Part shown: positions 5,910-43,633 of the stretch, one piece after another
How the letters are laid out: each line of letters opens with the position of its first letter
How positions within the stretch are numbered: position 1 is the first letter of the stretch
IMG/VR virus record: IMGVR_UViG_3300024999_000034
Coordinates: 116,839 to 180,838 of that record
Length of the DNA: 64,000 nt
Direction: 5' to 3' (one strand)
Source of the DNA: a virus
Translations under genes and position numbers: made by a program
The notes under the pieces: generated by a model
What the model was told of the DNA's origin: nothing
Seen by the model: only the letters and a program-made list of their open reading frames with translations
The model's database searches: none

Positions 5910-5944
5910 TACATATAAACATAAAAATAATTATTATACACTAC

Positions 5945-5974
5945 TTGATATTTACCTATTGAGTGGTGTATAAT
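5945..5974 (+). promoter_or_regulatory. Promoter for the 6008 gene group
   Basis: TTGATA (5945-5950), an 18-base spacer and TATAAT (5969-5974). An imperfect inverted repeat, ACACTACT (just upstream) with AGTGGTGT, encloses the spacer and could be an operator. Confidence 0.6.
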
Positions 5975-6007
5975 AGTATTAAGAAGTAAATCAAAGGAGT
6001 GAAGTAA

Positions 6008-6166
6008 ATGAAAGTAAAAATCCTAAAAGATGGCGAAAATGACAGAATGGTTATATTAAACGTCTTAGATTGGAGTGAAGTTCAGGTTAGTGATTTGATA
6101 GGTAAAAAGATTGTTGATATAACTCTTGATAATAAATATGAGGAAACAACTTTGGAACTAGAATAA
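6008..6166 (+). CDS. Small hypothetical protein
   Basis: 52 residues, first gene after the 5945 promoter; AAAGGAG precedes ATG 6008. Alternating hydrophobic residues suggest a small beta-rich fold. No family recognised. Confidence 0.65.
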   Translation: MKVKILKDGENDRMVILNVLDWSEVQVSDLIGKKIVDITLDNKYEETTLELE

Positions 6167-6206
6167 TCCCAAGAAATTATATTTTTAAAGGTAGGTGATA
6201 AATTAA

Positions 6207-6332
6207 ATGAACGGAGATAGAGAGTGTCCTCACTGCGGAGAAATGAGTTTATTCGAACAGGGTTTAAATCAATGGTTATGTGTAATTTGTGGTAGAGAGT
6301 TTGATGATGAATGGTTAGAAGGAGAAGAATAA
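6207..6332 (+). CDS. Small zinc-ribbon protein
   Basis: 41 residues with two Cys pairs (CPHC and CVIC) separated by 17 residues, the classic spacing for one zinc ion, and an acidic C-terminus (EGEE). Its partner is unknown. GTAGGTGA precedes the start. Confidence 0.7.
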   Translation: MNGDRECPHCGEMSLFEQGLNQWLCVICGREFDDEWLEGEE

Positions 6333-6333
6333 T

Positions 6334-6528
6334 ATGGATTTAAACAAATTTAAACTAAACGAACTGATTGAAGAAATAGAGTATCTGAAAGAAGCAGAGG
6401 AATTATTATTGCAAATATATACAAATGTTGGCGTATATAATCTAGAAGTTTTAGATAATAAATTAGACTACCCACGACCATTATCTACGAGAATAAGAGA
6501 TCATTTTAAATTTGACGATAGTGAATAA
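6334..6528 (+). CDS. Small helical hypothetical protein
   Basis: 64 residues starting 1 base after the zinc-ribbon stop. The first 35 residues form a Leu/Glu/Lys heptad-like helix that may dimerise. No family recognised. Confidence 0.7.
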   Translation: MDLNKFKLNELIEEIEYLKEAEELLLQIYTNVGVYNLEVLDNKLDYPRPLSTRIRDHFKFDDSE

Positions 6529-6573
6529 AATGTTGCTTTTAAACTATAAAATCAATTGAAAGGAAAGTGTAAA

Positions 6574-6768
6574 ATGAGATATTTTGAAGTAATAATGAAA
6601 AGCGGAGAAAAGAATTATCTCTCATATGACGTTGTAGAAATTCAAAGAGAAGAAATATCGGAAATTATTCAAGAAATTGATAGGAATGATTTTTTAAGAG
6701 AAAAAGAAGGAATATGTGAAGAATTACTATGTCATTCATGCGAAGAAAATAAATGCAGTGTTATTTAA
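6574..6768 (+). CDS. Small hypothetical protein with C-terminal Cys motif
   Basis: 64 residues from ATG 6574, behind GAAAGGAAAG. An N-terminal beta hairpin and a central Glu-rich helix are followed by C-terminal cysteines (CEELLCHSCEENKC), possibly binding metal. Confidence 0.65.
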   Translation: MRYFEVIMKSGEKNYLSYDVVEIQREEISEIIQEIDRNDFLREKEGICEELLCHSCEENKCSVI

Positions 6769-6808
6769 TACGAAGAAATATATTTAAATAAAAGGAGTGC
6801 AAAAGTAA

Positions 6809-11007: not shown

Positions 11008-11093
11008 CCCCAGAAAAAACGCATTTTATCTTTATTTAAGATTGGGAAAGTGGAGCATATATGAGTATATAGTAGCATGAAGGAGATTGACAA

Positions 11094-11270
11094 ATGAAAG
11101 AAAACGAATTATCAATTCAAGGAACTATTAACAGTTTAATTAAACTGAGAAAAGATTATATGGGTGCAGGAGGATGTTCAATGACCCATATGGACATTAA
11201 CCAAGAAAAATTAAAGGTACTAAGGAACGCTATTGAATTGTTGAATAAATTATTAGTTTTGCAGAAATAA
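11094..11270 (+). CDS. Small helical hypothetical protein
   Basis: 58 residues behind AAGGAGATTG. Two predicted helices separated by a GAGG turn; the second is Leu-rich and could form a coiled coil. Confidence 0.65.
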   Translation: MKENELSIQGTINSLIKLRKDYMGAGGCSMTHMDINQEKLKVLRNAIELLNKLLVLQK

Positions 11271-11301
11271 ATCGGTGAATTCATAAGAGGAGGAATTTAT
11301 A

Positions 11302-11514
11302 ATGGCAGGGTGTGGAATTAGACGAAATTGTGAGAATTGCAATAATCAAGTAGAGGTTAAACAATATATTTATTATTGCAAATTTGGAGAAAAGGCTTTT
11401 CAGGAATGTCAGATAGAATATCCTAAAGATTTAAAAGCAGGGAAACTTTATGACCAAACACAGAAAGATTTTATTTTAGAAAAAGATCGTTTTGTGTTAT
11501 TAGAGGGTTATTAA
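11302..11514 (+). CDS. Small Cys-rich protein
   Basis: 70 residues with CxxC (CENC) and two further Cys residues, fitting one zinc site. GAGGAGG precedes ATG 11302. It resembles the Cys-rich proteins of the 31.9-34 kb cluster in style. Confidence 0.7.
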   Translation: MAGCGIRRNCENCNNQVEVKQYIYYCKFGEKAFQECQIEYPKDLKAGKLYDQTQKDFILEKDRFVLLEGY

Positions 11515-11557
11515 TATCCTATATAAATAAATTATAATATAATTAGAAAGGATTTGT

Positions 11558-11824
11558 ATGATGATTATGAAATTATTAATGTATAAAAATTGTGGAGATG
11601 TTTTTAACCTTGACTATGAAGAAAAATATTGTAAATGTAAAGGAGTTGTAGGCAAATATTTAGACAATCTAAATGCCGAATATCATGGAGACGATGCTAT
11701 CCCATTAGGTTTTGCAAACAATAGTATATCTGTAGCTATTAAAAGCCAACCACTAAATGGAATGGGATATAATTTTAATGCTTTTGTTATTCCTAAAGAA
11801 TGTGATACTTTTGTTAGAAAATAA
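11558..11824 (+). CDS. Hypothetical protein
   Basis: 88 residues; the start is ATG 11558 or the adjacent ATG 11561, behind AGAAAGGA. Contains CKC and other Cys residues plus a Gly/Asn-rich middle. Function unknown. Confidence 0.65.
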   Translation: MMIMKLLMYKNCGDVFNLDYEEKYCKCKGVVGKYLDNLNAEYHGDDAIPLGFANNSISVAIKSQPLNGMGYNFNAFVIPKECDTFVRK

Positions 11825-11907
11825 ATCAATAAGTCAACAAGTTCGTTGTGTCATAGTACTAGAAAATTATTCCACATTAAAGTATAATAAGTTATGGGGT
11901 GAAAATA

Positions 11908-12075
11908 ATGCAAGTAGAAATTATTTATACAAATGAAACGGGAAAATGGTTGTGGGCAATTCAAATGTATGATACAGATGTTTGGATTGATGCTTTTGAT
12001 ATAAGAGATGATGCAATTGAGCATTGTAGAAAATATGGTCATAAAATTATTAGAATTATTGGGGAAGGAGAATGA
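11908..12075 (+). CDS. Small hypothetical protein
   Basis: 55 residues; GGGGTGA precedes ATG 11908. A beta-hairpin-like N-terminus with many aromatics is followed by a helix. The following TTG-start gene is 4 bases away. Confidence 0.6.
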   Translation: MQVEIIYTNETGKWLWAIQMYDTDVWIDAFDIRDDAIEHCRKYGHKIIRIIGEGE

Positions 12076-12079
12076 GTAA

Positions 12080-12259
12080 TTGAAAACAGATATTAAAAAA
12101 GTAGGTTTCTGGTGGAAATGGAATGAGTATTGTAATAATTGTGGTAGAAAGATTAGAGATTATGATGAATCCTCTTCAAGTGCTGAACCGGATGTAAATA
12201 AGGAAGATTATTGTTTAGAGTGCATGAGAAAGAAATTAGATGGCGGTATTAAATTGTAA
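12080..12259 (+). CDS. Small zinc-ribbon protein
   Basis: 59 residues from TTG 12080 behind GGGGAAGGAG. Two Cys pairs (CNNC, then CLEC about 30 residues on) form a probable zinc ribbon. Confidence 0.65.
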   Translation: MKTDIKKVGFWWKWNEYCNNCGRKIRDYDESSSSAEPDVNKEDYCLECMRKKLDGGIKL

Positions 12260-12278
12260 AATAAATATTTATAAACTA

Positions 12279-12308
12279 TTGACGTAATAGTTGGGTATAT
12301 GGTATGAT
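12279..12308 (+). promoter_or_regulatory. Promoter for the 12344 gene
   Basis: TTGACG (12279-12284), an 18-base spacer and TATGAT (12303-12308), 36 bases ahead of ATG 12344. Confidence 0.55.
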
Positions 12309-12343
12309 ATGGGTAAGAAGAAATTTGAGGAGGATATTAGATT

Positions 12344-12571
12344 ATGGAGTTAAACACAATCAAAAATCTAACAGACGACGAATTAAAAATTTGTTTTGAT
12401 GAAATAGCTGATTATAGGCAAAAGGGAATTATGTCAATAGATACTTTAACAAGAAAAGTCAGAAGTGATATTGCAAAAGAGATTGGCGTAATTTCTTGGG
12501 ACTTAGGATGTGATTCTACTAGCAATTACATTATGTTTGAGATTGCTAAAAGGCATTATGGAGTATCTTGA
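12344..12571 (+). CDS. Hypothetical protein
   Basis: 75 residues, first gene after the 12279 promoter; GAGGAGG lies upstream. Helical throughout. No family recognised. Confidence 0.7.
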   Translation: MELNTIKNLTDDELKICFDEIADYRQKGIMSIDTLTRKVRSDIAKEIGVISWDLGCDSTSNYIMFEIAKRHYGVS

Positions 12572-12614
12572 ATTAAATACTCCTCCCTTAAAATATTGAG
12601 AGGTGGAATTAATT

Positions 12615-12812
12615 ATGTCAGAGAATCTTAAACCTGAATGTAAATTAGCTGGTATAAATGGTAATGTATTTAACATAATTGGAACTGTATCCAAAACATT
12701 AAGAAATGCAGGATTAAGAGATAAAGCAGTTGAGTTTTCGGATAGAGCAGTACAGCAGGAAAGTTATGATGCTGTTTTAAGATTGTGTTTTGAATATGTT
12801 GATGTTTGTTAG
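12615..12812 (+). CDS. Small hypothetical protein
   Basis: 65 residues from ATG 12615 behind GAGAGGTGG. Helical, with MSENLKPECKLAGINGNVF at the N-terminus, a form common in small phage proteins of unknown function. The candidate structured RNA follows. Confidence 0.7.
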   Translation: MSENLKPECKLAGINGNVFNIIGTVSKTLRNAGLRDKAVEFSDRAVQQESYDAVLRLCFEYVDVC

Positions 12813-12842
12813 ATTATTTATCTAACTTTAATTTGCCCAAAT

Positions 12843-12989
12843 CACCTGTGCTGAGATGCGAAAGGTGAGCTAATCTTGTGCCTAGTCAACACAAGACAGT
12901 TGAAGTGTTATGGCAAACATCCAATTGTGCAATCAGGATTGGATGAAGACGCTCCTTCCCCAAGGAAATGAACTTAGGGGAATTATTTT
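12843..12989 (+). ncRNA. Candidate structured RNA ending in an intrinsic terminator
   Basis: An unusually G+C-rich stretch without a convincing gene. Four stems follow each other: CACCT (12843-12847) with AGGTG (12863-12867); CTTGTG (12875-12880) with CACAAG (12890-12895); CATCCAAT (12918-12925) with ATTGGATG (12938-12945); and TTCCCC (12956-12961) with GGGGAA (12977-12982), the last followed by TTATTTT like an intrinsic terminator. It could be a small RNA or a leader controlling the 13012 gene. It matches no riboswitch consensus I recognise; CTGAGA also occurs in TPP riboswitches, but their other conserved parts are absent. Confidence 0.5.
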
Positions 12990-13011
12990 AAAATTGAGAG
13001 GTGGGACACAT

Positions 13012-13158
13012 ATGGAAAAGAGACACCAATTAGTAGGATATAGTAAAATTGAAGACAGAGAACATTCATTAATGAAATTCAATAGCTATGCAGACTTCAA
13101 GGAAAATCTTATTGATCGGGAAGATTTAGAAGGATATACTGATTATATAGTCATTTAA
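13012..13158 (+). CDS. Small hypothetical protein
   Basis: 48 residues from ATG 13012 behind GAGAGGTGGG. An in-frame ATG at 12910 lies inside the structured-RNA region and has no ribosome binding site. No family recognised. It may be controlled by the upstream terminator hairpin. Confidence 0.6.
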   Translation: MEKRHQLVGYSKIEDREHSLMKFNSYADFKENLIDREDLEGYTDYIVI

Positions 13159-13229
13159 TATTGTAAATAAACTTAAAAAGATGGTTAGTGGATATTTTGC
13201 TTATGACAGGACACGTTAAATGACGTATT

Positions 13230-13249
13230 TTAAGTTAAGTTAAGTTGAG
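13230..13249 (+). repeat. Short tandem repeat (TTAAG)3-TTGAG
   Basis: Four pentamers in tandem directly upstream of the ribosome binding site of the 13267 gene. The array is short and its significance is uncertain. Confidence 0.6.
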
Positions 13250-13266
13250 AGAGGAGGATTCATTTT

Positions 13267-13512
13267 ATGGAACAAAAAGTTTATTGTACTGAGTGTGAAT
13301 ATTTAAAGGATGAAGATGCAGATATCTATAGTGGTAAAGATGATATCATGTATAAGAGTGGAATAAAAGTTATTTTTACATGCTCTAAACACAATGATCG
13401 TTTACTAAATCTATATAGTAATGTTATTTGTCCGTGTAATAAATGTAATGGCAAAGACTTTGAATTTTATACTACAGGGTCTAAAAGGTTAAAACCTAAT
13501 GTGTTATATTAA
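13267..13512 (+). CDS. Cys-rich small protein
   Basis: 81 residues. Cysteines are arranged as CTEC near the N-terminus, then C, then CPCNKC, with a His between, so it probably binds zinc. GAGGAGG precedes the start. Confidence 0.7.
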   Translation: MEQKVYCTECEYLKDEDADIYSGKDDIMYKSGIKVIFTCSKHNDRLLNLYSNVICPCNKCNGKDFEFYTTGSKRLKPNVLY

Positions 13513-13533
13513 GTGCAAAAGGTGGTGTAATAA

Positions 13534-13704
13534 ATGTCTAGAAATATTCCATTGGGGAACTTAAATGTATTGGCAGATATTAGTTATACTAATGTATTAG
13601 ATAAATATATAATAGGACTTCATATAGGAAGTATCTATACGATCCTAAATGAGAAATTTAATTCAGAAAAAGAGGCTATGGATTATATATTTAAGAATTT
13701 TTAA
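13534..13704 (+). CDS. Small hypothetical protein
   Basis: 56 residues behind AAGGTGGTG, uncharged in the middle with several Ile/Leu residues. No family recognised. Confidence 0.6.
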   Translation: MSRNIPLGNLNVLADISYTNVLDKYIIGLHIGSIYTILNEKFNSEKEAMDYIFKNF

Positions 13705-13748
13705 AATCCTAGCAAACGTGAACTTTAATGGAAAGAAGATGATTAAAA

Positions 13749-13949
13749 ATGTTTGTTGTTACAACGGATACTTATGGAGAAAGATATTATATAATGGAAC
13801 AATTGCCAGTTAAATGGACTAAGGAGTTGAATAGAGCAGTCTTGTATGAATTTGTAGCAGAGATACCACCATTGGAAAGTGATTTTGATTATATAGTTAA
13901 AGTAGAACATGATGAAAATGGTAAATTATATATATCACACGAAAATTAA
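13749..13949 (+). CDS. Small hypothetical protein
   Basis: 66 residues behind GAAAGAAG. Mixed beta strands and acidic loops. No family recognised. Confidence 0.65.
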   Translation: MFVVTTDTYGERYYIMEQLPVKWTKELNRAVLYEFVAEIPPLESDFDYIVKVEHDENGKLYISHEN

Positions 13950-13974
13950 GTTTAAATTGAAGGAGTTGTACATA

Positions 13975-14559
13975 TTGTATCAATCAATGCATGAAATTTT
14001 AAAAGAAGGTAAGGTTGGTAAATTTGAATTAAAGAAGTTTACTATTGGTAATAGTGATTTACGTGCTATGATGGATGGTATTCCAACAGGTGATTATATT
14101 AAGCTTCAGAATCCATGTGATGTTATTATGTCAAATACATCTATGGAGAAAAGAAGTAATGCTAGATTTGTTATGGACGTTCATGGAGATGTTTTTATAG
14201 CAGGATTAGGAATAGGGTTAATAGTATTGCCTATTCAAGACAAAGAAGAAGTAAAATCTATTACTATTTTAGAAAAGTATCCTGAAGTAATTGAATTAGT
14301 TGGTAAACAATTACATTTAAATGAAAAGGTAAAGATTATTCAAGGCGATGTATTTGATTATGAATTTCCAAAAGGAACTAAATTTGATACTTTATATTTT
14401 GATATTTGGAATTATGTGAATTCAGATGTTTATGAGAAAGAAATGAAGGTATTGAAGAAAAAATATAGGAAGTATAAAAGATCATTAAAAGATAATCCAA
14501 ATGCTTTTATTAAATGTTGGGCAGAATATGAGGCCAGATATGATAAACCATTGAGATAG
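13975..14559 (+). CDS. SAM-dependent methyltransferase-fold protein
   Basis: 194 residues from TTG 13975 behind AAGGAG. The Rossmann SAM-binding motif GLGIG is preceded by a strand (DVFIA) and followed by an acidic ribose-binding segment (ILEKYPEVIELV), then GDVFDY and the DTLYFDIWN strand. The pattern is that of spermidine-synthase-like class I methyltransferases rather than sequence-specific DNA methylases. Substrate unknown. The C-terminus is short and basic. Confidence 0.75.
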   Translation: MYQSMHEILKEGKVGKFELKKFTIGNSDLRAMMDGIPTGDYIKLQNPCDVIMSNTSMEKRSNARFVMDVHGDVFIAGLGIGLIVLPIQDKEEVKSITILEKYPEVIELVGKQLHLNEKVKIIQGDVFDYEFPKGTKFDTLYFDIWNYVNSDVYEKEMKVLKKKYRKYKRSLKDNPNAFIKCWAEYEARYDKPLR

Positions 14560-14607
14560 ATTCCGATAAATTTATTCTTTTCTGGGATTTAGGAGAGGAA
14601 GTTAGAT

Positions 14608-14799
14608 ATGAATTGTCAATGTGATAATACTTTAGAGTTTACAGATAATAGTATTAAATCTAAAAATGGCAGACATGGAAAAGTGATTCCTATTTATTAT
14701 TGTAGTTCATGTAATGTTGTTTACGATGGATACGAATTAGATTGTAATAATGAATATATCCTTGCAGAAAAGAAGTATATTAAATGGTTTAAAAAATAA
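14608..14799 (+). CDS. Small zinc-ribbon-like protein
   Basis: 63 residues with CQC near the start and CSSC later, plus a C-terminal basic tail. AGGAGAGG precedes ATG 14608. Probable zinc site. Confidence 0.65.
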   Translation: MNCQCDNTLEFTDNSIKSKNGRHGKVIPIYYCSSCNVVYDGYELDCNNEYILAEKKYIKWFKK

Positions 14800-34114: not shown

Positions 34115-34264
34115 ATGATTTGTAAGACAGAAATAAATTTTCTGCATGGAATGTATATGCCAAGCTTTGTTTGGATATGTTATAAAAAGAGAAATAAAAT
34201 TAAGAAAAGGAAGTGCTTTAAATTATGTTGCAACAACAATTTAATCGGGGAGAGATATGGTTAG
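34115..34264 (+). CDS. Small basic protein overlapping mazF
   Basis: 49 residues behind AAGGAGG, running out of frame into the mazF start. Basic and Cys-containing. It does not look like a MazE antitoxin but occupies the antitoxin position. It may be only an upstream frame controlling mazF translation. Confidence 0.4.
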   Translation: MICKTEINFLHGMYMPSFVWICYKKRNKIKKRKCFKLCCNNNLIGERYG

Positions 34265-34608
34265 TTGATCTTCCATTTACAGGTAATTCAATTCAAGGTG
34301 GAGGCATTAGGCCAGTTGTGTTGTGTAGTAATAATATGGCAAATCTACATAGTCCAATTTTACATTATGTTCCTCTTACAACTCGTAAGAAACCATCCCT
34401 CCCTACTCACACAGAAATTGACACAGATAGCGGAATAATTAGAAAATCTACTGTACTATGTGAACAAGTTATGCCATTACCAAAAACGGCTTTCAAAGAA
34501 TGTATAGGATTCTGCAATGAAAAAGTAATGGATAAGGTTGATTTTTGTCTAGCTGTGCATTTAGGTTTGGTTAAACTTGTGAATAGAAATAATGTTGCTT
34601 ATGGTTAA
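34225..34608 (+). CDS. mazF: MazF/PemK-type endoribonuclease
   Basis: 127 residues. The N-terminal RGEIWLVDLPFTG matches the MazF start; GIRPVVLCSN supplies the conserved Arg-Pro strand; VPLTT is the catalytic loop region, followed by the basic KK linker. MazF proteins cut mRNA at short motifs. No recognisable MazE gene precedes it. In a phage it could act in superinfection control, abortive defence or plasmid-like maintenance. ATG 34225 is behind AAAGGAAG. Confidence 0.85.
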   Translation: MLQQQFNRGEIWLVDLPFTGNSIQGGGIRPVVLCSNNMANLHSPILHYVPLTTRKKPSLPTHTEIDTDSGIIRKSTVLCEQVMPLPKTAFKECIGFCNEKVMDKVDFCLAVHLGLVKLVNRNNVAYG

Positions 34609-34637: not shown

Positions 34638-36242
34638 TTGGGTAAAAATAAAACTACAGAGCAGTATAGACAAGAGTTAGAAGAATATAATTTAAAATAT
34701 AATACAAAAATAAAGTTAAAGAATGGAGTTGAATATAATGGTGCTAATACTAAAATATTACATATTTGTTCGTGTGGTAAAGAGTGGTTAGTTTCACCTT
34801 CAGGCGTTATAAATAGTAGTTCGAAAACAAGTTGTGGTTTATGTTATACGTTTGCAGAAAAAGGAATCGATAATCTAGGGTATAATTTTTTAGAAAAATA
34901 TTGGGATTATAAAACAAATAACGAATTAGGAATTGATCCTTGGAAAATTAGTTGTAGTTCTGGAAAAGATGTTTATATATTTTGCCAAGAGAAAGATTAT
35001 CATGGAAGTTATAAAGTACGTTGTGTTGATTTTAGTAATGGAAGTAGGTGTGGTTATTGTCAAGGATACTATTTGGTTCATCCTTTAGATAGTTACGGAC
35101 AGTATTTAATTGATTCATTTGGAATAACCGCAATAGAACTGTATTGGGATTATAATATAAACACTGTTGATCCTTGGAAGATTACAAAACAATCAAATAA
35201 GATGGTATATATTAAATGTCAGAGGAAATATTATCATGGAAGTTATGGCATCAAGTGTAATGATTTTGTAAGAGGTGATAGATGCGGATATTGTGGAGGT
35301 AAAAAAGTACATCCATTGGACAGTCTAGGAACACTACATCCAAAATCACTAGAATTATGGTCAAATATAAACAAAAAATCACCATATGAATATATGTCTG
35401 GAAGCGATATGGAAGTTTGGTTTAAATGTGGCAACAAGAGACATGAAGATTACCAAAAAAGAATATATAATGCAGTAAATTGTAATTTTAGATGTCCAGT
35501 ATGTTCTCAAGAGCAAAAAGAATCTGTCATGGCCTCCACACTAAAGCAGGTATTAAGATATGAATACAGTCATACAAAATGGGAATATGACGCAGGATTT
35601 AAAATAGATAATAATATTAGTAGGTATGATATTTATGTTCCAGAATTGAATAACTTATTAATAGAATGCCAAAGTGAATATCACGATGATGAAAAACATA
35701 TTATTAACGATCAACTTAAAAAACAGTTTGCTATTGATAATGGATATGAATTTATAGCAATAGATAAAAGAGATTTTACAATAATAGAAATACTGAAATT
35801 TTTTATACCACATATAGATAAAATCCCTGATTATATACAAATAAATAAAAATACAACAAGAAGCTGGGACATAGAAAACGCTCAAAAACTACTAGATACT
35901 GGTCATACATACATAGATATAGCCAATATATTAGAAACGTCAGCTACAGCAATACGTGCAAGTGTAGGCGATAATGGTTTAATTAAACCAAATAATTATA
36001 TTTTCCAAGGTGCAAATATAGTTTGTTTATCTATGGATAATAATTTAATAAAAACATATAATTCATGTACTTCTGCTGCCAAAGATTTAGGAAAAGCAAA
36101 TGGAACAAGTATTAGTTCATGTTTGACTAAAAAGCCTCGTTCAGATACTGGGAAAATACGTGAAACAGCTTTTGGTTTTAAATGGATGTATCTAGTAGAT
36201 TATGAGAATATGGTCAAAGATCAAAATAATAAACCTCCGTAG
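34638..36242 (+). CDS. Zinc-ribbon EDxHD-type homing endonuclease
   Basis: 534 residues from TTG 34638 behind AAGGAGAG. Residues about 30-290 contain repeated Cys-pair modules (CSCGKEW, CGLC, then several CQ/CGYC) of the DUF4379-like zinc-ribbon type. A Vsr-like nuclease core follows at about 330-400, with SRYDIYVPE, LLIECQSEYHDD and the QLKKQFAIDNGYEFIAID segment. The C-terminal third has an HTH (about 415-450) and a NUMOD1-like module. Free-standing endonucleases of this plan are mobile. It sits between mazF and the Agr-like locus. Confidence 0.75.
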   Translation: MGKNKTTEQYRQELEEYNLKYNTKIKLKNGVEYNGANTKILHICSCGKEWLVSPSGVINSSSKTSCGLCYTFAEKGIDNLGYNFLEKYWDYKTNNELGIDPWKISCSSGKDVYIFCQEKDYHGSYKVRCVDFSNGSRCGYCQGYYLVHPLDSYGQYLIDSFGITAIELYWDYNINTVDPWKITKQSNKMVYIKCQRKYYHGSYGIKCNDFVRGDRCGYCGGKKVHPLDSLGTLHPKSLELWSNINKKSPYEYMSGSDMEVWFKCGNKRHEDYQKRIYNAVNCNFRCPVCSQEQKESVMASTLKQVLRYEYSHTKWEYDAGFKIDNNISRYDIYVPELNNLLIECQSEYHDDEKHIINDQLKKQFAIDNGYEFIAIDKRDFTIIEILKFFIPHIDKIPDYIQINKNTTRSWDIENAQKLLDTGHTYIDIANILETSATAIRASVGDNGLIKPNNYIFQGANIVCLSMDNNLIKTYNSCTSAAKDLGKANGTSISSCLTKKPRSDTGKIRETAFGFKWMYLVDYENMVKDQNNKPP

Positions 36243-36297: not shown

Positions 36298-36996
36298 ATG
36301 GATTTAATCACACTAGCAACAAAAACGACATACAAATTATTCAAAGTAGATGAAGTAATTGACTCATTTGATCAAAAACACTTTAATATTGTTAAGATAA
36401 TAGTAAAAAAATATAGGAATATGGACATTGAAGCAACAAAATCTCAAGTACAACAATTAGCCGAAAACGGAATTAGGAATTTTTGGAGTGAGTTATTTAA
36501 GTATATAATTGTATTATCAATTGCAAGTTATTTTAATATATTTACTCCAACTTTCTTTGTAATGAATGCTTTCTCTGTCCTCAGAGCATTGGCTGGTGGC
36601 GTACATATGTCTACCATAGGAAAATGCTTTGCAATGATGGTTCTATTCTTCTTATCACTAGGATATTTAATTAGTATATTACATATAAATACGTTAGTAT
36701 TAGTCGTAGGAATATCATTGGGGTCTATATGGAGCATATACATAGCTAAAAAATATTCTCCACAGGAAAGACCAGATAAATCAGATAAAGATTGTGATCA
36801 CGGCAATATAAAAAAGTATAAGACAATAAAGTTTATTAAATTCTCGTATATAATTAGTATGATATTAATATTGTTTACTCAAAAATACATAATTGGGATT
36901 AGTATATTTACAGGTGTTTTACTTGAGATGGTAACAATTACACCTAGAGGAACGAGATTTTTTCAATGGATAGATAGTAAGAAGGTGACACTATGA
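36298..36996 (+). CDS. agrB: AgrB family peptide-processing protease
   Basis: 232 residues, slightly longer than staphylococcal AgrB. The family signature ALAGGVHMSTIGKC carries the catalytic pair His103 and Cys110, seven residues apart as in S. aureus AgrB (His77/Cys84). Several transmembrane segments follow, with a charged loop (KKYSPQERPDK) between them. AgrB is a membrane cysteine endopeptidase that trims the AgrD precursor and forms its (thio)lactone ring. AAAGGAGAGA precedes ATG 36298. The stop overlaps the next gene. A candidate substrate is encoded at 38516. Confidence 0.9.
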   Translation: MDLITLATKTTYKLFKVDEVIDSFDQKHFNIVKIIVKKYRNMDIEATKSQVQQLAENGIRNFWSELFKYIIVLSIASYFNIFTPTFFVMNAFSVLRALAGGVHMSTIGKCFAMMVLFFLSLGYLISILHINTLVLVVGISLGSIWSIYIAKKYSPQERPDKSDKDCDHGNIKKYKTIKFIKFSYIISMILILFTQKYIIGISIFTGVLLEMVTITPRGTRFFQWIDSKKVTL

Positions 36997-37619
36997 TCGA
37001 AGTGGTAGTGTTTACATTCGTTTTTGCATGGTTCAATGGTTATAAGTGGAAGGTATTAAATTTGTTTAAGCATTGGAGCATATACCCCATTGCACTTACT
37101 TGTGTTGCTCATATTTATATTATATATCTTATGGTTCATGGTCAATATTGGTTTATGGAATATGCCAAATACATAAAAATTGTATCTATATTACTTTACT
37201 TAGGTTTGATTTGTAAATATAAGTTATTCGACATATCTATCTTTAAGAAAATTAATATTAAAGAGAACCCTATATTAACCCCTTTTACATCTCCTGTTTC
37301 TTTAGGTGTATTATGCATGGGTATAGGATCTGTCTTAAATATTATTGCTATGAAATTTAATGGTTCAAAAATGCCTGTTTTTGCGAGTGTAAGTTTTGGT
37401 ACAGGATATTCAAAAATAGATATGTTTGATAAAATGTTACAGTATAATGACTTTCATGTATTTGGAAACAGTGCTACACATTTGATATTTTTAACCGATT
37501 TCATAGATATTTTTACATCCATTATGAGTATCGGTGATGTATTAACTAGAATATTTGTTGTTTTAGTAATATATTACTCAATAAAAGTATGTAATCATAA
37601 AGTAATAAATAATATTTAG
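36993..37619 (+). CDS. DUF5317-like membrane protein
   Basis: 208 residues with about five transmembrane segments. The NGSKMPV segment and the late FLTDFIDIF...SIGDV stretch match the DUF5317 family, of unknown function, which I associate with agrB-type genes in clostridia (recollection, not checked). The start overlaps the agrB stop by 4 bases, so the two are probably co-translated. Confidence 0.75.
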   Translation: MIEVVVFTFVFAWFNGYKWKVLNLFKHWSIYPIALTCVAHIYIIYLMVHGQYWFMEYAKYIKIVSILLYLGLICKYKLFDISIFKKINIKENPILTPFTSPVSLGVLCMGIGSVLNIIAMKFNGSKMPVFASVSFGTGYSKIDMFDKMLQYNDFHVFGNSATHLIFLTDFIDIFTSIMSIGDVLTRIFVVLVIYYSIKVCNHKVINNI

Positions 37620-37648
37620 TTGACAAACAGTGAAGGGAGGTGTATACT
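37620..37648 (+). promoter_or_regulatory. Internal promoter of the Agr-like locus
   Basis: TTGACA (37620-37625), an exact 17-base spacer and TATACT (37643-37648), one base from consensus in total. It lies directly after the DUF5317 stop and would drive the receptor-like gene and the peptide gene independently of agrB. Confidence 0.75.
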
Positions 37649-37687
37649 TATCACATAGCAAAGAAAAGTTTAGAGGAGTAGATTATT

Positions 37688-38476
37688 ATGTTGGAAAATA
37701 TCATTTATTGTGCGTTGAGTTGTATTTTTATCACGATCCCAGAAGACATTTTTCTAATAATATTAACGCTAAGATTTATGGGAAGAAAAGAGATGTTGGA
37801 TTTATACAATATTAAAGAAAATTTAATTTCGATTTTAAAAATTGTTATCCCTTCGGCATTGTCTTTAAATCTTTTAAATTTTATAATAATGACACCAACT
37901 TCAATTAACAAAATAATATCTTATACTATGTTGTATTTGTTATTGGTATACATATTAAAAAAGAAATCTTTTATTGAATATCCAAAATTATATCAAAAAG
38001 CTTTTCTATATTTTATCTTAAGTATATTAGTAATAATAGCTATTGAAATTATTACCTTGCCAATTATATTTAAATTAGTTAATAAAACATATAAAGAAAT
38101 TCAGGTAAATTATTATTTAGTCATAATATGTTCTCTGTCTTCTAGAATTATAAATCTAATAATATTGTTCACTATTTTTATGAAGAAGAATAGTAAATTT
38201 CAAATAAGTATTGGTAATTATATATTTAATAATAAATTTTTCACAAGATTATTGATTGGTGTCACGGCAGGATTGGTTGTATCTGAGGCATACTTTGTCA
38301 AGTTAATTTTGTGGAATAACTTTTTAAATATCATTCCAACAATTTACGAACAATTGTTGTTAGTTATAAGTTTTACTTTTTTAGTACCAAGTTTGATAAT
38401 TTCAATAGTTTATTCTTGTATAAATTATTGTGTTATGATTATTAATAGTGAGAAGCAGACTTTCAGAAATGACTGA
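37688..38476 (+). CDS. AgrC-like receptor domain without kinase (copy 1)
   Basis: 262 residues, almost entirely membrane: about six or seven hydrophobic segments. The opening pattern, a first helix carrying PEDIFLIILTL, resembles the sensor domain of Agr-type GHKL histidine kinases, and the chain ends after the last membrane segment, where a kinase would begin. It resembles the 39695 protein in length and in its N-terminal PE motif. It may bind the mature peptide, but how a signal leaves it is unknown. GAGGAG precedes ATG 37688. Confidence 0.7.
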   Translation: MLENIIYCALSCIFITIPEDIFLIILTLRFMGRKEMLDLYNIKENLISILKIVIPSALSLNLLNFIIMTPTSINKIISYTMLYLLLVYILKKKSFIEYPKLYQKAFLYFILSILVIIAIEIITLPIIFKLVNKTYKEIQVNYYLVIICSLSSRIINLIILFTIFMKKNSKFQISIGNYIFNNKFFTRLLIGVTAGLVVSEAYFVKLILWNNFLNIIPTIYEQLLLVISFTFLVPSLIISIVYSCINYCVMIINSEKQTFRND

Positions 38477-38515
38477 TCTGATTTTTCAAATACATTATAG
38501 AAGGAGGTGAAAATA

Positions 38516-38623
38516 ATGAAAAAGAATATCGTAATTGGTTTTGTAGCAATCGCTGCTTTTGCAGCAGTAATGTCTTCAATGGTAGTTTGGCATCAATCGG
38601 AAACTCCTAGTTGTATCGCGTAG
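38516..38623 (+). CDS. AgrD-like signal peptide precursor
   Basis: 35 residues behind AAGGAGGTGA, the best ribosome binding site in the window. A basic MKKN start and a hydrophobic/amphipathic helix (about 5-24) are followed by MVVWHQSETPSCIA. In Agr precursors the ring peptide lies just before an acidic Pro-containing tail. By analogy a Ser-lactone made from S-M-V-V-W (residues 21-25) followed by an HQSETPSCIA tail is possible; Cys33 is too close to the end for a usual thiolactone. It sits between a receptor-like gene and a terminator in an agrB locus. A simple small membrane peptide is the alternative. Confidence 0.7.
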   Translation: MKKNIVIGFVAIAAFAAVMSSMVVWHQSETPSCIA

Positions 38624-38639
38624 TACATATCCATGATCT

Positions 38640-38669
38640 AAGGAGGGAGTATTTATACTCTCTCCTTTT
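38640..38669 (+). terminator. Intrinsic terminator of the Agr-like operon
   Basis: AAGGAGGGAGTAT (38640-38652) pairs with ATACTCTCTCCTT (38655-38667) with a single G-T pair, followed by TT and an AT-rich run. It closes the peptide-gene transcript. Confidence 0.8.
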
Positions 38670-38697
38670 GAATTATAAAATAATTTTTATAATACTA

Positions 38698-38727
38698 TTG
38701 ACATATTATCCACTGTTGTAGTATAGT
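38698..38727 (+). promoter_or_regulatory. Promoter of the HTH-MazF gene
   Basis: TTGACA (38698-38703), an 18-base spacer and TATAGT (38722-38727), just after the terminator and 62 bases before ATG 38789. Confidence 0.65.
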
Positions 38728-38788
38728 AATATAAAGTAAGAAATTACGAAATATTATATTTACAAATTATGAAGGGTGGATGATTAAT

Positions 38789-39601
38789 ATGTTTTTCAAT
38801 ACAAAAAAGAGAAATGAGACTGTTAAATCAAATGAGGCAAAGGATTTCAAGAAGCTTGCAAACTTAGTAAAAATAGCCGTTGGAAGCAATACTATTTCAG
38901 AGTTTGCAAACAGATGTGGTATTCCAAATTCAGCTAAAAGTATTGCTATGATTACTCAAGAAAAAATAACTACATACCCAGAAGTCGGTTTGCTTAAAAA
39001 AATTGCTTTGGGTTCTGAATTTCGAGTATCTTTTAATGATTTAAGGATTGCATGTGGTTATGATTTAAATGATACAGGGATTGATCTTAGAGGTGTAAAA
39101 GCTATGAGGGGTTGGATTGCCTTATGTAACTATGGGAACGTTTTAGACTCAGAACAATCTGGAATTAGGCCTTCCTTAATAATTTCCAATAATATTGGGA
39201 ATGAGAGAGGGACTATTTTGATGGCAATTCCTTTATCTAGTAAAATAATGAAAAATACTATGCCGACCCACGTCAGAATTGGCCCCAAAGACTGCGGATT
39301 GGCACAAGAGTCAGAAATTTTAGTTGAGCAGATGCGTGTAGTATCAAAAAGTCGTTTAATGATTGATGGGTTCATTCAACCAATTTGTGAATGTCCTGAA
39401 GACATACTCCGTAAGGTAGAAATAGCCATCATGAAGGAAACTGGTATGGTGAATACTAGAGCCAATGAATCTACAGTAGATAGATTCCTTGATAAACTTA
39501 ATGAATATGTAAATAAAGCAGAAGAAAGTCGTATCAATCACATTCAAAGCAATAATCGCAACACAATTCCACAACAACAGAGAGTAGCATCTTTTGCATG
39601 A
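38789..39601 (+). CDS. HTH-MazF/PemK fusion protein
   Basis: 270 residues from ATG 38789 behind GAAGGGTGG (ATG 38780 is an alternative). Residues about 20-95 resemble an HTH region (TISEFANRCGIPNSAKSI). From about 110 a MazF-like barrel follows: RGWIALCNYG, GIRPSLIISNN and MAIPLSS. The C-terminus is a helical, Gln/Asn-rich tail. It may be a self-regulated toxin, a toxin with built-in antitoxin, or a MazF-fold regulator. It lies between the two receptor-like genes, implying a link to the peptide system. Confidence 0.75.
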   Translation: MFFNTKKRNETVKSNEAKDFKKLANLVKIAVGSNTISEFANRCGIPNSAKSIAMITQEKITTYPEVGLLKKIALGSEFRVSFNDLRIACGYDLNDTGIDLRGVKAMRGWIALCNYGNVLDSEQSGIRPSLIISNNIGNERGTILMAIPLSSKIMKNTMPTHVRIGPKDCGLAQESEILVEQMRVVSKSRLMIDGFIQPICECPEDILRKVEIAIMKETGMVNTRANESTVDRFLDKLNEYVNKAEESRINHIQSNNRNTIPQQQRVASFA

Positions 39602-39606
39602 ATATA

Positions 39607-39659
39607 ATATAAATGGTCATTATATGTCCTTCTTATTATAATATAATGACCATTTATAT
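39607..39659. repeat. 19-bp perfect inverted repeat
   Basis: ATATAAATGGTCATTATAT (39607-39625) is fully complementary to ATATAATGACCATTTATAT (39641-39659), loop 15 bases. It begins 6 bases after the HTH-MazF stop. Without a U tract it is more likely an operator or a protective RNA hairpin than a classic terminator. Confidence 0.75.
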
Positions 39660-39694
39660 ATACCAAAAATAAAAATAAAAAGGAGTACGCCTAT

Positions 39695-40495
39695 ATGCAA
39701 GCAATTACAAATGCCATCCTAAACACCATATTCGTTGGCCTCCCTGAAGAAATGTTCATTGTAATAATCACATTATCACTTCTAAAAATCAATGATCTGC
39801 TAGACATCTTAATGTGGAAACGTAGTCTAACATGGATTATGCTCACAGCATTACCCGTAGCAATAATGGCAAATATCTTCAAATATATTATCATAGTACC
39901 AAAACAAAATTCTATATTGTCAATTATGTTATTTATGATAATTCTTATGCAATACATAGTCATCACCAATAGTTTCAAAGTAAATTTTTCACTAATATTT
40001 AAAACAGCAATCTACACAATCGCAAGCTTTGTAATTGTAGGAATCATTGAATATGCTTACTGTCCACTTCTATTAGCATTATTAGAAAAACCATATAGTT
40101 TTTTCAATGATAATGTAATGTACAATATCCTATGGGCTATTCCAATCAAAATTCTACACTTATGTATTGTTTCCTTAATTCTAGTGAGAAAAAATAGCAA
40201 AGTAAAAATTAATCTGTTTGACTCAATTATTAGAAATAAATTTATTGTTAGTGGTTTGTTGCTAATATTAGCAACCAGAGCATTAGTAGTTAATTATATC
40301 AATAAATTAGTGGAAAATAATAGCATCATGATTCAATTACAATTTATTGATGAATTAATTGCTATTGTTATAATCACATCAATTCCAGTAATATTTGTCA
40401 CATGGTTATTAATGGTAATCAATCATTATTTATGTAAAGAGAAAATGGCTCTGTTGGTTTGTGAAGGAGTTAGTGGAAATGATGACGGTGAGTGA
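39695..40495 (+). CDS. AgrC-like receptor domain without kinase (copy 2)
   Basis: 266 residues with about six or seven hydrophobic segments. It is similar in length and plan to the 37688 protein, including the PEEMFIVIITLSLL opening and a KNSK turn late in the chain. The C-terminus stops shortly after the last membrane segment (GVSGNDDGE) with no DHp or GHKL kinase region. AAAGGAG precedes ATG 39695. Two related receptors for one peptide suggest sensing plus immunity or decoy functions. Confidence 0.7.
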   Translation: MQAITNAILNTIFVGLPEEMFIVIITLSLLKINDLLDILMWKRSLTWIMLTALPVAIMANIFKYIIIVPKQNSILSIMLFMIILMQYIVITNSFKVNFSLIFKTAIYTIASFVIVGIIEYAYCPLLLALLEKPYSFFNDNVMYNILWAIPIKILHLCIVSLILVRKNSKVKINLFDSIIRNKFIVSGLLLILATRALVVNYINKLVENNSIMIQLQFIDELIAIVIITSIPVIFVTWLLMVINHYLCKEKMALLVCEGVSGNDDGE

Positions 40496-40677: not shown

Positions 40678-41031
40678 ATGAATTTAGAAACTAACAACGA
40701 GGAATATTTATGGGTAATCAAAGATCAAGATGGTAACTTTGCTCACAGAAACAGTATTGGCAAGTCTGGTAAGAATACCTGCATATACATATCTTTTAGA
40801 ACATTCTCTCCTGAGTGCAAGGGTTATATAAGTAAAGAAAGTGCTGAATTAGCCTTGCAAGAATTAAACAGAAGAAAATCTATCATGAGATTACCAAATA
40901 CATTCAATTTAGAATATAATATTTTAAGTAAGATGACTAAACTACATAGGGAATTTCAAGGAGAGAATATGGTCATATATGAAAAAACACATTCAAATAT
41001 ATTAAACTGTCCTGTATTAGAAGCAATCTAG
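40678..41031 (+). CDS. Hypothetical protein
   Basis: 117 residues behind AAAGGAGAAG. A Trp/Asp/Gly-rich start (EYLWVIKDQDGNF) resembles small phage proteins with a beta hairpin; the rest is helical. It lies alone between two promoters, and its possible LexA-like box would make it damage-inducible. Confidence 0.7.
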   Translation: MNLETNNEEYLWVIKDQDGNFAHRNSIGKSGKNTCIYISFRTFSPECKGYISKESAELALQELNRRKSIMRLPNTFNLEYNILSKMTKLHREFQGENMVIYEKTHSNILNCPVLEAI

Positions 41032-41062: not shown

Positions 41063-41095
41063 GAGCCACACTGGTCGCATCGATAAGTGTGGCTC
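41063..41095. terminator. Stem-loop between the 40678 gene and the lysogeny-type operon
   Basis: GAGCCACACT (41063-41072) is fully complementary to AGTGTGGCTC (41086-41095) around 13 bases. There is no U tract on the + strand; a TTTATATTT run follows the stem on the - strand. Confidence 0.55.
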
Positions 41096-41117: not shown

Positions 41118-41146
41118 TTGACATTAGAGTAATAATTAGATATACT
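41118..41146 (+). promoter_or_regulatory. Strong promoter of the putative lysogeny-control operon
   Basis: TTGACA (41118-41123), 17 bases and TATACT (41141-41146). The hexamers and spacing equal those at 21591 and 37620. Confidence 0.75.
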
Positions 41147-41184
41147 GATATTAATATTATTTTAATGTGAAGGAGAGATATTTA

Positions 41185-42552
41185 ATGCTTAAAGAAAAAT
41201 CAGTTGAGTTAATGCAAGAATTAAATCCATTGATCGTTAAATATTCTAGTAATGACAAGGTAAGAAAAATAATTTTAAATGAGTTTTCCAAAAGGAATAT
41301 GAGTGGTCGGTTGGCACTATCTATTTTAAACGAGAAAAGAGTATTATCAACATTAGATATCGATGAAGGGAAAGACTTGATATTATTATTTGTTTTTACT
41401 AGTGCAATGTACAATGCATTGACATTTAAAGAAGCAGATGATAAAGAACCTTTGGGAGAAATAGAAGAGTCATTTAAAATAACTCTCGAAAACTATTTTA
41501 CTGAAATTGAGATTGAAAGTCTATTAAACCACACATTTGAAAAAAAAGTTGATGAAAAAGATGAGGCTATTGTTTTTCCAAAAATGAATTTGATTGCTCC
41601 TGGATTTTATTCTGGGTATATGTCTGGAAAACATTTTGCTGAATTAGATGCTGGAAATGAATTCATCTATAATTTTAAAACCCAGCGTGATCCAATTATT
41701 AATGTATCTGGAATGAAAGAAATACATTTAAATAAGAAAAACGCAAAAGAAATTAGAGATGGTTTGCTTTCAGGCGATCAATTCCCAACTACTATAGTGG
41801 TAAATGTTCTTCGAGATGGATCAGACGAAATAATCTACAACGAAAAAAATGGAGACTTGACTATTGTTTCAGGAACTAAAAACCTTGTTGACGGAATGCA
41901 TAGAAAAGTGGGTAATAGCTTAGCCCTTGCTCTTAATCCAGATTTGCAATTTAATTGGTTGTTAGTTGTGATAAACTATAGCGAGGTTAGAGCGCAAAAA
42001 TATATGGTTGAAATTAACAAGCAACAAAAAATGAAGCAGGAACATGTTGATAACATGGATACTTCTAATCTTGGAAACATTGTTGTAGACAACATTAAAG
42101 ATATTGACAACGCTGAATTCTCTGGGCATATTAAAGACAGCGATAAAGAACTAGAACATGGTGGTATGGTAAAAAAATCAACATTAGCAACTAGTATAGA
42201 AGAGTGTTACAAGGATAAACTAACTAATAAAATTGAAGCAAAAAAGATAGCAAAGCATATTGCTAATGTTGTAGATTATGTTATAGGATTACACGCAGAA
42301 GAGTTTATAGAGCATTCTGAAGCTACTAAGAAAGAAAGTTATATCAATCATAAGAATATGTTTGCAGGATATGTTGCCTTATCTGAAAGATTATATGAAG
42401 TAAAGGATTGGGAAGATTTATTAGAAGAAATTCTTAATCAAATTGATTTTAGTGTTAAAAATTCTTTCTGGAAAGATATTGGAATATCAGATTCAGATAT
42501 GAAAAAGTCTACCAGAAACAATTTATATAAATTCTTTCAGAAATTAGTTTAA
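41185..42552 (+). CDS. DGQHR/DndB-like protein
   Basis: 455 residues from ATG 41185 behind AAGGAGAGA. The region around residues 225-300 has the DGQHR-type pattern: SGTKNLVDGMHRKVGN followed by ATP-cone-like alternating strands and EINKQQKM. DndB proteins regulate DNA phosphorothioation, but no dnd genes are here. SPbeta has a protein of nearly this length (YopQ) just before its master repressor, as I recall. A DNA-binding or regulatory role in lysogeny is inferred from position. Confidence 0.65.
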   Translation: MLKEKSVELMQELNPLIVKYSSNDKVRKIILNEFSKRNMSGRLALSILNEKRVLSTLDIDEGKDLILLFVFTSAMYNALTFKEADDKEPLGEIEESFKITLENYFTEIEIESLLNHTFEKKVDEKDEAIVFPKMNLIAPGFYSGYMSGKHFAELDAGNEFIYNFKTQRDPIINVSGMKEIHLNKKNAKEIRDGLLSGDQFPTTIVVNVLRDGSDEIIYNEKNGDLTIVSGTKNLVDGMHRKVGNSLALALNPDLQFNWLLVVINYSEVRAQKYMVEINKQQKMKQEHVDNMDTSNLGNIVVDNIKDIDNAEFSGHIKDSDKELEHGGMVKKSTLATSIEECYKDKLTNKIEAKKIAKHIANVVDYVIGLHAEEFIEHSEATKKESYINHKNMFAGYVALSERLYEVKDWEDLLEEILNQIDFSVKNSFWKDIGISDSDMKKSTRNNLYKFFQKLV

Positions 42553-42586: not shown

Positions 42587-43633
42587 TTGGTTATTAATGA
42601 AGTTAATAATGGGTTGCAAAATGAAGAGGTGGTATTTGAGGTTGATTCAGAAGTGAAAAAGGAATTTCTAGAAAAACAATTAAAGTCAACTAGAAGTTTC
42701 TACACTTATGTTCTCAAAAGAGCAGATGAATTTGAATCACAACTTGGGAAAAAGATTTACGATTTTAATATTGAAGATCGCGATGAGATGTTGACTGTTC
42801 AGTTTAAGAATAAGAATAAATGGACGTTTCAATCTGCATTATCTCCTTTAAAAACTTATGTTGACTTCTGTATTTCTAAGAATTTAGTTAGACACAATGA
42901 AAACAGGTTTATGACTATTCTTCCGTCAGATTATGATGATTATGTTAGTGATCAAGCAAAAAACAGTTCTTATATCCCTTTATCAGAATCCAGAGAATTT
43001 CAAAAAAGATTAGCAAATGATCAAGATAAATTAATCATTGAATTATCTAGTTTAGGGGTTAGGGGAAGAACTGAAAAAGGCAATACACTTGAAGAGTTTG
43101 TAAATCTCAAAGTAAAAGATATTAAGTGGAAAGATAAGGAATTATGGCTCACTAAAAACAATGGGGAGCAAAGGTATATCAATGTTGATGATTATACTTT
43201 AGATTTACTAAAACGAGTTATTAACCAAACTTTCTATGTATCTAACAATGGATTAAAGACTAAAAAGAATGATTTAGGAGAATTCGAAAAGACTAATAGA
43301 GGCAGGGCTATAAGTCCGACTGAGTATGTTTTTAGAGTTCCAGGAAAGAATAGAAAAGGCAAAGTTGCTTATCAATTTTTTACTAGCAGAATTCAACGGA
43401 TGCAAAGTTGGTTAGAAGCTCCGTATTTAAATAGTTCTAATTTATATTTTTCTGCAATTTTAGATTATGCAAAAAACATGTTAGATGAGAAAAAAGCAAA
43501 AGGAGAAAAAGCAGAATTAACTAGAGAAGAATATATTCGAATTAATGAAAGATTTGAATTTGGTGAAAACGGAGAAAAATATGTGTTTAAGACTAGAGAT
43601 TTAGTTAAAATGCACTTTGGTAACGGAGAGTAA
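42587..43633 (+). CDS. Tyrosine-recombinase-fold protein, probably non-catalytic
   Basis: 348 residues from TTG 42587 behind AAGGGGTG. An N-terminal SAM-like core-binding domain (about 20-110) and a recombinase-like core with ELSSLGVRGRTEKG...LEEFVNLKVKDI (box I) and a WLTKNNGEQRYINV strand are present. The HxxR box and the tyrosine nucleophile near the C-terminus are not visible. Loss of catalysis with retained fold is how the SPbeta master repressor MrpR (YopR) is described. A repressor role here is inferred. Confidence 0.65.
   Translation: MVINEVNNGLQNEEVVFEVDSEVKKEFLEKQLKSTRSFYTYVLKRADEFESQLGKKIYDFNIEDRDEMLTVQFKNKNKWTFQSALSPLKTYVDFCISKNLVRHNENRFMTILPSDYDDYVSDQAKNSSYIPLSESREFQKRLANDQDKLIIELSSLGVRGRTEKGNTLEEFVNLKVKDIKWKDKELWLTKNNGEQRYINVDDYTLDLLKRVINQTFYVSNNGLKTKKNDLGEFEKTNRGRAISPTEYVFRVPGKNRKGKVAYQFFTSRIQRMQSWLEAPYLNSSNLYFSAILDYAKNMLDEKKAKGEKAELTREEYIRINERFEFGENGEKYVFKTRDLVKMHFGNGE

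Follow-up and report, generated by a model that had tools for sequence, protein, structure and literature searches.

The 64,000-nucleotide stretch analyzed here (the window) is the final 64 kb of a virus record that is 180,838 bases long, IMG/VR record IMGVR_UViG_3300024999_000034 (positions 116,839–180,838). Positions 36298–40495 of the window hold six genes that probably form a kinase-less Agr-type communication cassette in the arbitrium slot of an SPbeta-type lysogeny switch, in which a peptide would act on lysogeny through a receptor-like membrane protein (rec1) and a fusion of a helix-turn-helix (HTH) domain to MazF. Arbitrium is the best understood viral peptide communication system, and since 2014, phage agr genes have had the status of a curiosity with no role assigned to them; an Agr cassette in the arbitrium slot makes the role of such genes directly testable. 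Coordinates refer to the window unless another record is named, and all window features given below lie on the plus strand, apart from one inverted repeat that has no strand.

All six open reading frames (ORFs) reported by the initial annotation of this DNA are present, in a single direction, and the gene order that it gave (AgrB, DUF5317 protein, receptor, AgrD, toxin, receptor) is correct for the window itself. A tyrosine integrase encoded elsewhere in the virus record (record positions 99748–100215) suggests that the phage is temperate.

The cassette lies directly upstream of a YopQ–YopR operon

The operon beside the locus, initially described as repressor-like, encodes a DndB-like YopQ homologue (41167–42552; E = 6e-16 to SPbeta yopQ and 40.3 bits to PF14072) followed by an integrase-like homologue of YopR/MrpR, the master repressor of SPbeta (42587–43633); the homologue is the proposed master repressor here. 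A profile built from the latter and nine relatives, with SPbeta excluded, matched the MrpR crystal structure 8a0a with 103 bits, and BLASTP comparison with SPbeta YopR gave E = 4e-7 in the N-terminal part. The profile scored better, 133.7 bits, against PDB 9rd5 chain H, a “core-binding domain” protein.

The gene order in SPbeta is yopK (aimR), aimP, yopM to yopP, yopQ, and yopR. Because the cassette is situated directly 5′ of YopQ–YopR, as aimR–aimP are in SPbeta, we assign it to the arbitrium position. The operon resembles the SPbeta yopM–yopR operon in having YopQ followed by the repressor homologue, but differs in that the places of yopM to yopP are empty: no gene resembling YopP separates the cassette from yopQ, which is preceded instead by a 117-residue protein (40678–41031) that is kept in relatives. 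AimR (NF038310) had no match in the virus record of the window, nor was it found over the cut-off in any AgrB-bearing record searched; matches were restricted to Bacillus SPbeta-type records. The proposal that an Agr-type system replaces arbitrium here is thus strongly supported by context.

Related cassettes were collected from IMG/VR with YopQ and MazF profiles, and not by a single-sequence search with the AgrB of the window. The YopQ search yielded six contigs, and a narrower one added L067, which begins within the cassette, with its AgrB and receptor cut off. A search with the MazF fusion only yielded twelve further loci with nine distinct cassettes, bringing the collection to 16 further distinct cassettes, or 17 with the window. 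All loci from the MazF-fusion search have the order receptor, AgrD, HTH–MazF, YopQ, YopR, so that the nine cassettes found without YopQ are all linked to YopQ–YopR, too. In fact, every one of the 17 cassettes lies directly 5′ of this operon, even where YopQ and YopR are only ~24 to 28% identical to those of the window. Conservation in 17 distinct cassettes excludes a chance arrangement. As to the gene order in these relatives, the initial annotation was right in placing AgrD before HTH–MazF (17/17), whereas AgrB mostly comes elsewhere: it precedes DUF5317 in the window, L011, L071, and L072 and follows MazF in the other cassettes.

This constancy of place bears on a different explanation, namely that the cyclic peptide is real but alters host behavior, as proposed for phage phiCDHM1, and that the site is an insertion hot spot. 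The agr genes of phiCDHM1 are proposed to work via host response regulators (PMC3901668), and the homing-type endonucleases that flank the present locus could make it a hot spot. Given that the cassette keeps one place across such divergent operons, that the locus lacks a kinase or response regulator to feed host pathways, and that the same slot holds arbitrium in SPbeta, we regard this explanation as rather unlikely.

AgrB, AgrD, and the predicted ring

The first gene encodes an AgrB-type membrane endopeptidase (36298–36996), which matches PF04647 with 85.9 bits (cut-off 23). Its catalytic His103 and Cys110, whose spacing of seven residues was noted at the outset, do not vary among seven aligned relatives. 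The next gene encodes the expected DUF5317 membrane protein (36993–37619; 58.7 bits to PF17248), a family that was not detected in L009.

The AgrD propeptide (38516–38623; 35 residues, MKKNIVIGFVAIAAFAAVMSSMVVWHQSETPSCIA) has counterparts at the same position in all 17 cassettes, with a Cys or Ser nucleophile and a recognition tail of the Q-x-x-x-P-x-C type that shows small variations only. Four of six other orthologues at this position pass the TIGR04223 cut-off of 19 bits, with scores of up to 41.1 bits; together with the conserved nucleophile column, these bear out the candidate AgrD, which in the window itself falls just under the cut-off. A strong GGAGGTGA-type ribosome site precedes agrD in nearly all cassettes.

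The predicted ring is a serine lactone, S21-M-V-V-W25 (38576–38590), with boundaries taken from what is known of the AgrD family. Its first column contains Ser in 14 of the 17 propeptides and Cys in L010, L071, and L072, and nothing else; judged from sequence, such Ser/Cys exchange at one column is the pattern expected of a lactone or thiolactone nucleophile. The remaining ring residues are variable. With boundaries set in the same way, the predicted rings are SMVVW, SAFLW, SWVIW, CFAAW, CLAAW, SYFIS, SMFFS, SWLFT, SWFWL, CRFWF, SWLGA, SWLFS, SWFFA, SWAFS, SAFWT, SAMWT, and SAMWS; SWLFT belongs to L008 and SWFWL to L009.

A hairpin follows the agrD stop codon directly (38640–38667 in the window, z = −3.6) and is found in all 17 cassettes, 9 to 20 bases after the stop. 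Its consensus has eight pairs, five of which show compensatory changes. AimR of phi3T acts at a terminator that separates aimP from aimX (PMC10769878), so that in both systems a hairpin comes directly after the signal gene. The parallel is merely suggestive since most of the hairpins have no clear U-tract; the hairpin was not picked up by the terminator scan. In all cassettes, a −35-like element lies between the hairpin and the MazF gene, and in the window it belongs to a promoter-like site, TTGACA-18-TATAGT (38698–38727).

Receptor-like proteins and the HTH–MazF fusion

The putative peptide receptor, rec1 (37688–38476), is a membrane protein whose type is modeled as seven long helices (homologue P0006, 11 sequences, predicted local distance difference test score of 76.8); the assignment as receptor draws on this model and on co-divergence with the signal genes, described below. 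A second seven-helix protein, rec2 (39695–40495), is homologous to rec1 (32% identity, E = 1e-19) and optional, being present in only some relatives. The two proteins had initially been likened to AgrC sensor domains. Homology of the second to the first was borne out, whereas the likeness to AgrC was not confirmed for either, since scans of 11 members against Pfam and PHROG gave no match, nor did Foldseek with viral and PDB libraries; an AgrC alignment was not among these comparisons. At 262 to 266 residues, rec1 and rec2 contain no kinase domain and thus do not have the sensor-plus-GHKL architecture of an AgrC histidine kinase, and the proteins scanned in the locus include no AgrA with a LytTR domain. 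A route to an AgrC-type sensor via the GHKL kinases of a Paenibacillus replicon was also tried, and those kinases yielded none.

The toxin-like gene (38780–39601) encodes, as first proposed, a MazF-like fusion protein, in which an N-terminal domain of ~100 residues is followed by a PemK/MazF domain (PF02452, 75.4 bits). The MazF part matches Bacillus subtilis MazF with 106 bits and a template modeling score of 0.9, and thus has the MazF RNase fold; R130 and S153 occupy the places of R25 and T48. The N-terminal domain is, by sequence comparison, moderately XRE-like: hhalign gave 64% against XRE HTHs, compared with 70% for a true HTH control. A Phage_integrase match in this domain was judged to be due to chance, the XRE-like HTH being the better, if moderate, fit. 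A MazF operator was also considered; an inverted repeat around the promoter −10 element is clear in some relatives and does not exceed shuffled sequences in the window.

A stand-alone MazF (34225–34608; PF02452, 66 bits) flanks the cassette. No MazE-like ORF was recognized beside either mazF, although a diverged antitoxin could escape recognition. The stand-alone MazF and most of the HTH–MazF fusions end, after a polar linker, in a similar motif, V-x-Y/F-A, sometimes followed by N or R, which might serve as a tag for docking or degradation. Compared with Bacillus MazF (EndoA/YdcE), the fusion thus shares the fold and the active-site Arg but differs in its N-terminal helical XRE-like extension, the Ser at the place of Thr48 in the window, the C-terminal motif, and the lack of a visible adjacent MazE.

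Co-divergence and exchange of cassettes

Pairwise identities of the receptor, AgrD, both parts of HTH–MazF, AgrB, and DUF5317 correlate with each other across cassettes (r = 0.55–0.88), with p = 0.002 throughout, which is the lowest possible value. For rec1, the correlations are 0.73 with AgrD, 0.78 with the MazF N-terminal domain, and 0.76 with AgrB; DUF5317 co-diverges with rec1, AgrD, the MazF fusion, and AgrB at r = 0.55–0.64. The correlations of rec2 are weaker and come from seven loci only, which gives low power, and the membership of rec2 in the co-varying unit is not clear. The cassette genes are uncorrelated with YopQ, YopR, and the stand-alone MazF (r = −0.10 to 0.15), while YopQ and YopR correlate at 0.98. 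The pattern is mostly kept in the class B loci alone, where AgrB–YopR is the exception (r = 0.35, p = 0.004).

Could the peptide reach the switch via YopR/YopQ or the 40678 protein, with HTH–MazF as a separate addiction or regulatory passenger? The lack of co-variation between the cassette and the stand-alone MazF genes in the vicinity of the operon (r about 0 for that of the window) is in line with this idea. So is the promoter-like site that HTH–MazF has of its own after the agrD hairpin, because of which it need not be co-regulated with agrD. On the other hand, both parts of HTH–MazF co-diverge with rec1, AgrD, and AgrB, and MazF is the known output of arbitrium in phi3T. We therefore consider a passenger role unlikely.

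Several pairs of loci combine shared and divergent parts. In L008 and L009, YopQ and YopR are 100% identical (rounded) and the upstream DNA is 98.6% identical, yet the cassettes differ, with identities of 45% for the receptor, 55% for AgrD, 59% for the MazF fusion, and 65% for AgrB. The window and L007 share a downstream HTH protein that is 96% identical, whereas their receptors are 27% identical; for the window and L011, the MazF fusions are 85% and the YopQs 58% identical. These mixtures indicate that cassettes are exchanged as blocks. It follows that the correlations show what travels together rather than which proteins bind each other, since block transfer alone suffices to produce them.

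Sharp allele differences and swaps of this kind, as well as the MazF-type RNase within the unit and the two receptor-like proteins in some loci, would also suit a competition or toxin system, in which the peptide or the MazF fusion damages cells whose phages carry another cassette or aborts superinfection, the seven-helix proteins confer immunity, and the variability reflects allele-specific exclusion. We find this quite improbable: the AgrB/AgrD pair represents signal-making chemistry, the coupling to the lysogeny operon is strict, and no PADLOC defense model matches any cassette protein, for which reason a reading as a defense system was also dropped.

Proposed mechanism

In the communication scheme that we favor, AgrB would cleave AgrD and close a five-residue ring on Ser21, giving, by analogy with the family, a serine lactone of the SMVVW type. 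The exported peptide would accumulate as infections proceed and may be sensed by rec1, which, lacking a kinase, could act on HTH–MazF by, for example, release or sequestration. Active MazF would then cut transcripts and, together with MrpR/YopR, tip the outcome toward lysogeny. This last step is modeled on phi3T, where, as its authors conclude, arbitrium serves chiefly to control MazF, whose activity promotes lysogeny (PMC10769878); because MazF does so there, we infer that its activity favors lysogeny here. At the sequence level, recombination is seen to swap cassettes with different rings, which gives “dialects” on one phage backbone. If the scheme is true, a kinase-less receptor with a toxin-like RNase effector is a new way of reading a cyclic peptide.

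Several observations weigh against this scheme. The AgrD of the window scores 18.5 bits with TIGR04223, just below the cut-off, and neither rec1 nor rec2 has detectable homology to known receptors in the databases scanned. The active-site Thr48 of MazF is Ser153 in the window, while many relatives have Thr, and the N-terminal domain of HTH–MazF was modeled at low confidence. Neighboring genes can co-diverge through block transfer without direct interaction. Bacterial genome contigs scanned with YopQ and then with the MazF fusion held no relative, and so gave no host. Finally, which way the signal tips the decision, toward lysogeny or toward lysis, is argued only by analogy.

Comparison with known systems

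Like arbitrium in SPbeta and phi3T, the cassette places a peptide signal just 5′ of yopQ–yopR and has MazF as its proposed effector, MazF being the output in phi3T (PMC10769878). Unlike arbitrium, it has no AimR and no linear hexapeptide but the ring chemistry of AgrB/AgrD and a receptor-like protein of the membrane, and its MazF is encoded by the phage itself as part of a fusion with an HTH-like domain, whereas phi3T uses the MazF of the host. Arbitrium cassettes, too, diversify on shared phage backbones.

Similarities with bacterial AgrBDCA systems are the His/Cys pair of AgrB and, in AgrD, the nucleophile, the short ring, and the polar tail containing Pro. The cassette differs from these systems in lacking an AgrC histidine kinase and AgrA, with HTH–MazF as proposed effector, and in that Ser replaces Cys in 14 of the 17 peptides. 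The gene order differs as well, being B–DUF5317–receptor–D–MazF here and DUF5317–receptor–D–MazF–B in most relatives.

Phage agr genes have been described in the C. difficile phage phiCDHM1, and AgrB/AgrD with kinase-less membrane proteins in the Brevibacillus phages Davies, Emery, and Abouo (PMC3901668). What these C. difficile and Brevibacillus examples share with the present locus is a temperate phage that has AgrB and AgrD but lacks AgrA (PMC3901668). However, phiCDHM1 has a protein with an AgrC-like kinase domain, and the Brevibacillus modules combine AgrB/AgrD with two further proteins, one in the membrane and a short one at the place of LytTR; neither kind is located on an SPbeta YopQ–YopR operon or includes MazF. 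SPbeta-like phages that carry agr homologues receive a single sentence, with no further detail, in a 2025 review (PMC11945551). In the literature searched, which mostly excluded subscription papers and preprints, neither an Agr cassette on the YopQ–MrpR operon nor an Agr–MazF unit was described.

A second Agr architecture in SPbeta-like and other phages

AgrB was found in 19 of 38 SPbeta-like records searched. In ten of these, it is located ~0.9 kb 3′ of YopR within a compact module that comprises a membrane protein of ~215 residues, AgrB, an AgrD with a Ser ring (e.g., SWTFL or SWTLI), and a short protein that is a single LytTR domain or resembles one. Just 3′ of yopR, the module spans 11085–12830 in L043 and has the same place in L048, L050–L053, L057, L065, and L066. 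Most of the phages with LytTR-type modules appear to derive from sequenced isolates. Modules of the same kind occur in Paenibacillus replicons and in Brevibacillus phages Abouo and Emery, where they sit between integrase and repressor genes (L068 5343–7022 and L069 3547–5958) and where a short protein takes the LytTR position behind AgrD. Profile comparison revealed no detectable relation between the receptors of the LytTR class and those of the window class.

Elsewhere among phages AgrB is rare, one query of the LytTR-module type having found it in 5 of 50,697 records. Searches of phage and plasmid collections yielded no window-class relative of AgrB or the receptor, except for one weak AgrB-like match. 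This is a stretch of 22% identity in a small Klebsiella plasmid record (NZ_CP061968.1, 14661–15062), which is odd for that host and possibly a contamination.

Taken together with arbitrium, the two Agr architectures lead us to lean, somewhat cautiously, toward the view that a conserved MrpR core takes different plug-in peptide modules (linear-peptide arbitrium and, both kinase-less, Agr–MazF and Agr–LytTR 3′ of MrpR) and that the Agr signals are mostly swappable serine-lactone dialects. If true, phages communicate in a modular way, through languages that can be exchanged on a single decision core.

In SPbeta-like phages that have the LytTR-type module, a stand-alone MazF is likewise found, ~1.5 to 3.5 kb 5′ of yopQ (L043 5623–6009, L048 6922–7311, L050 5437–5832, and L057 5772–6152), so it may be a general feature of such phages to have a MazF of their own close to the MrpR operon. 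The surroundings of the switch in L049 are different again. An HTH-containing protein of 445 residues followed by a secreted-type peptide of 37 residues lies 5′ of yopQ (5265–6793), and an Agr module with LytTR, a response regulator–LytTR protein, and a GHKL kinase lies 3′ of yopR (11071–14644). L049 possibly has two signaling systems around one switch.

Regulatory and flanking features of the locus

Apart from the site before HTH–MazF, promoter-like TTGACA-17-TATACT sequences were found 5′ of rec1 (37620–37648; 11/12, among the three best matches) and 5′ of yopQ–yopR (41118–41146; 11/12), in a region where the total count of promoter-like matches is no higher than in shuffled sequence. An inverted repeat with perfect 19-bp arms and a 15-base loop (39607–39659, z = −6.5) follows the MazF fusion; it could be terminator-like or an operator, and a clear T-run is absent. 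A stem-loop precedes the yopQ promoter (41063–41095, z = −5.9).

On its 5′ side, the cassette is flanked by a putative homing-type endonuclease with DUF4379 and NUMOD1 domain matches (34638–36242). This protein is 93% identical to its counterpart in L007 (3135–4730), yet the two cassettes are of different types. A different homing-type endonuclease lies between the 40678 gene and yopQ in L008, L009, L011, and L067. These homing-type endonucleases may be drivers of cassette exchange.

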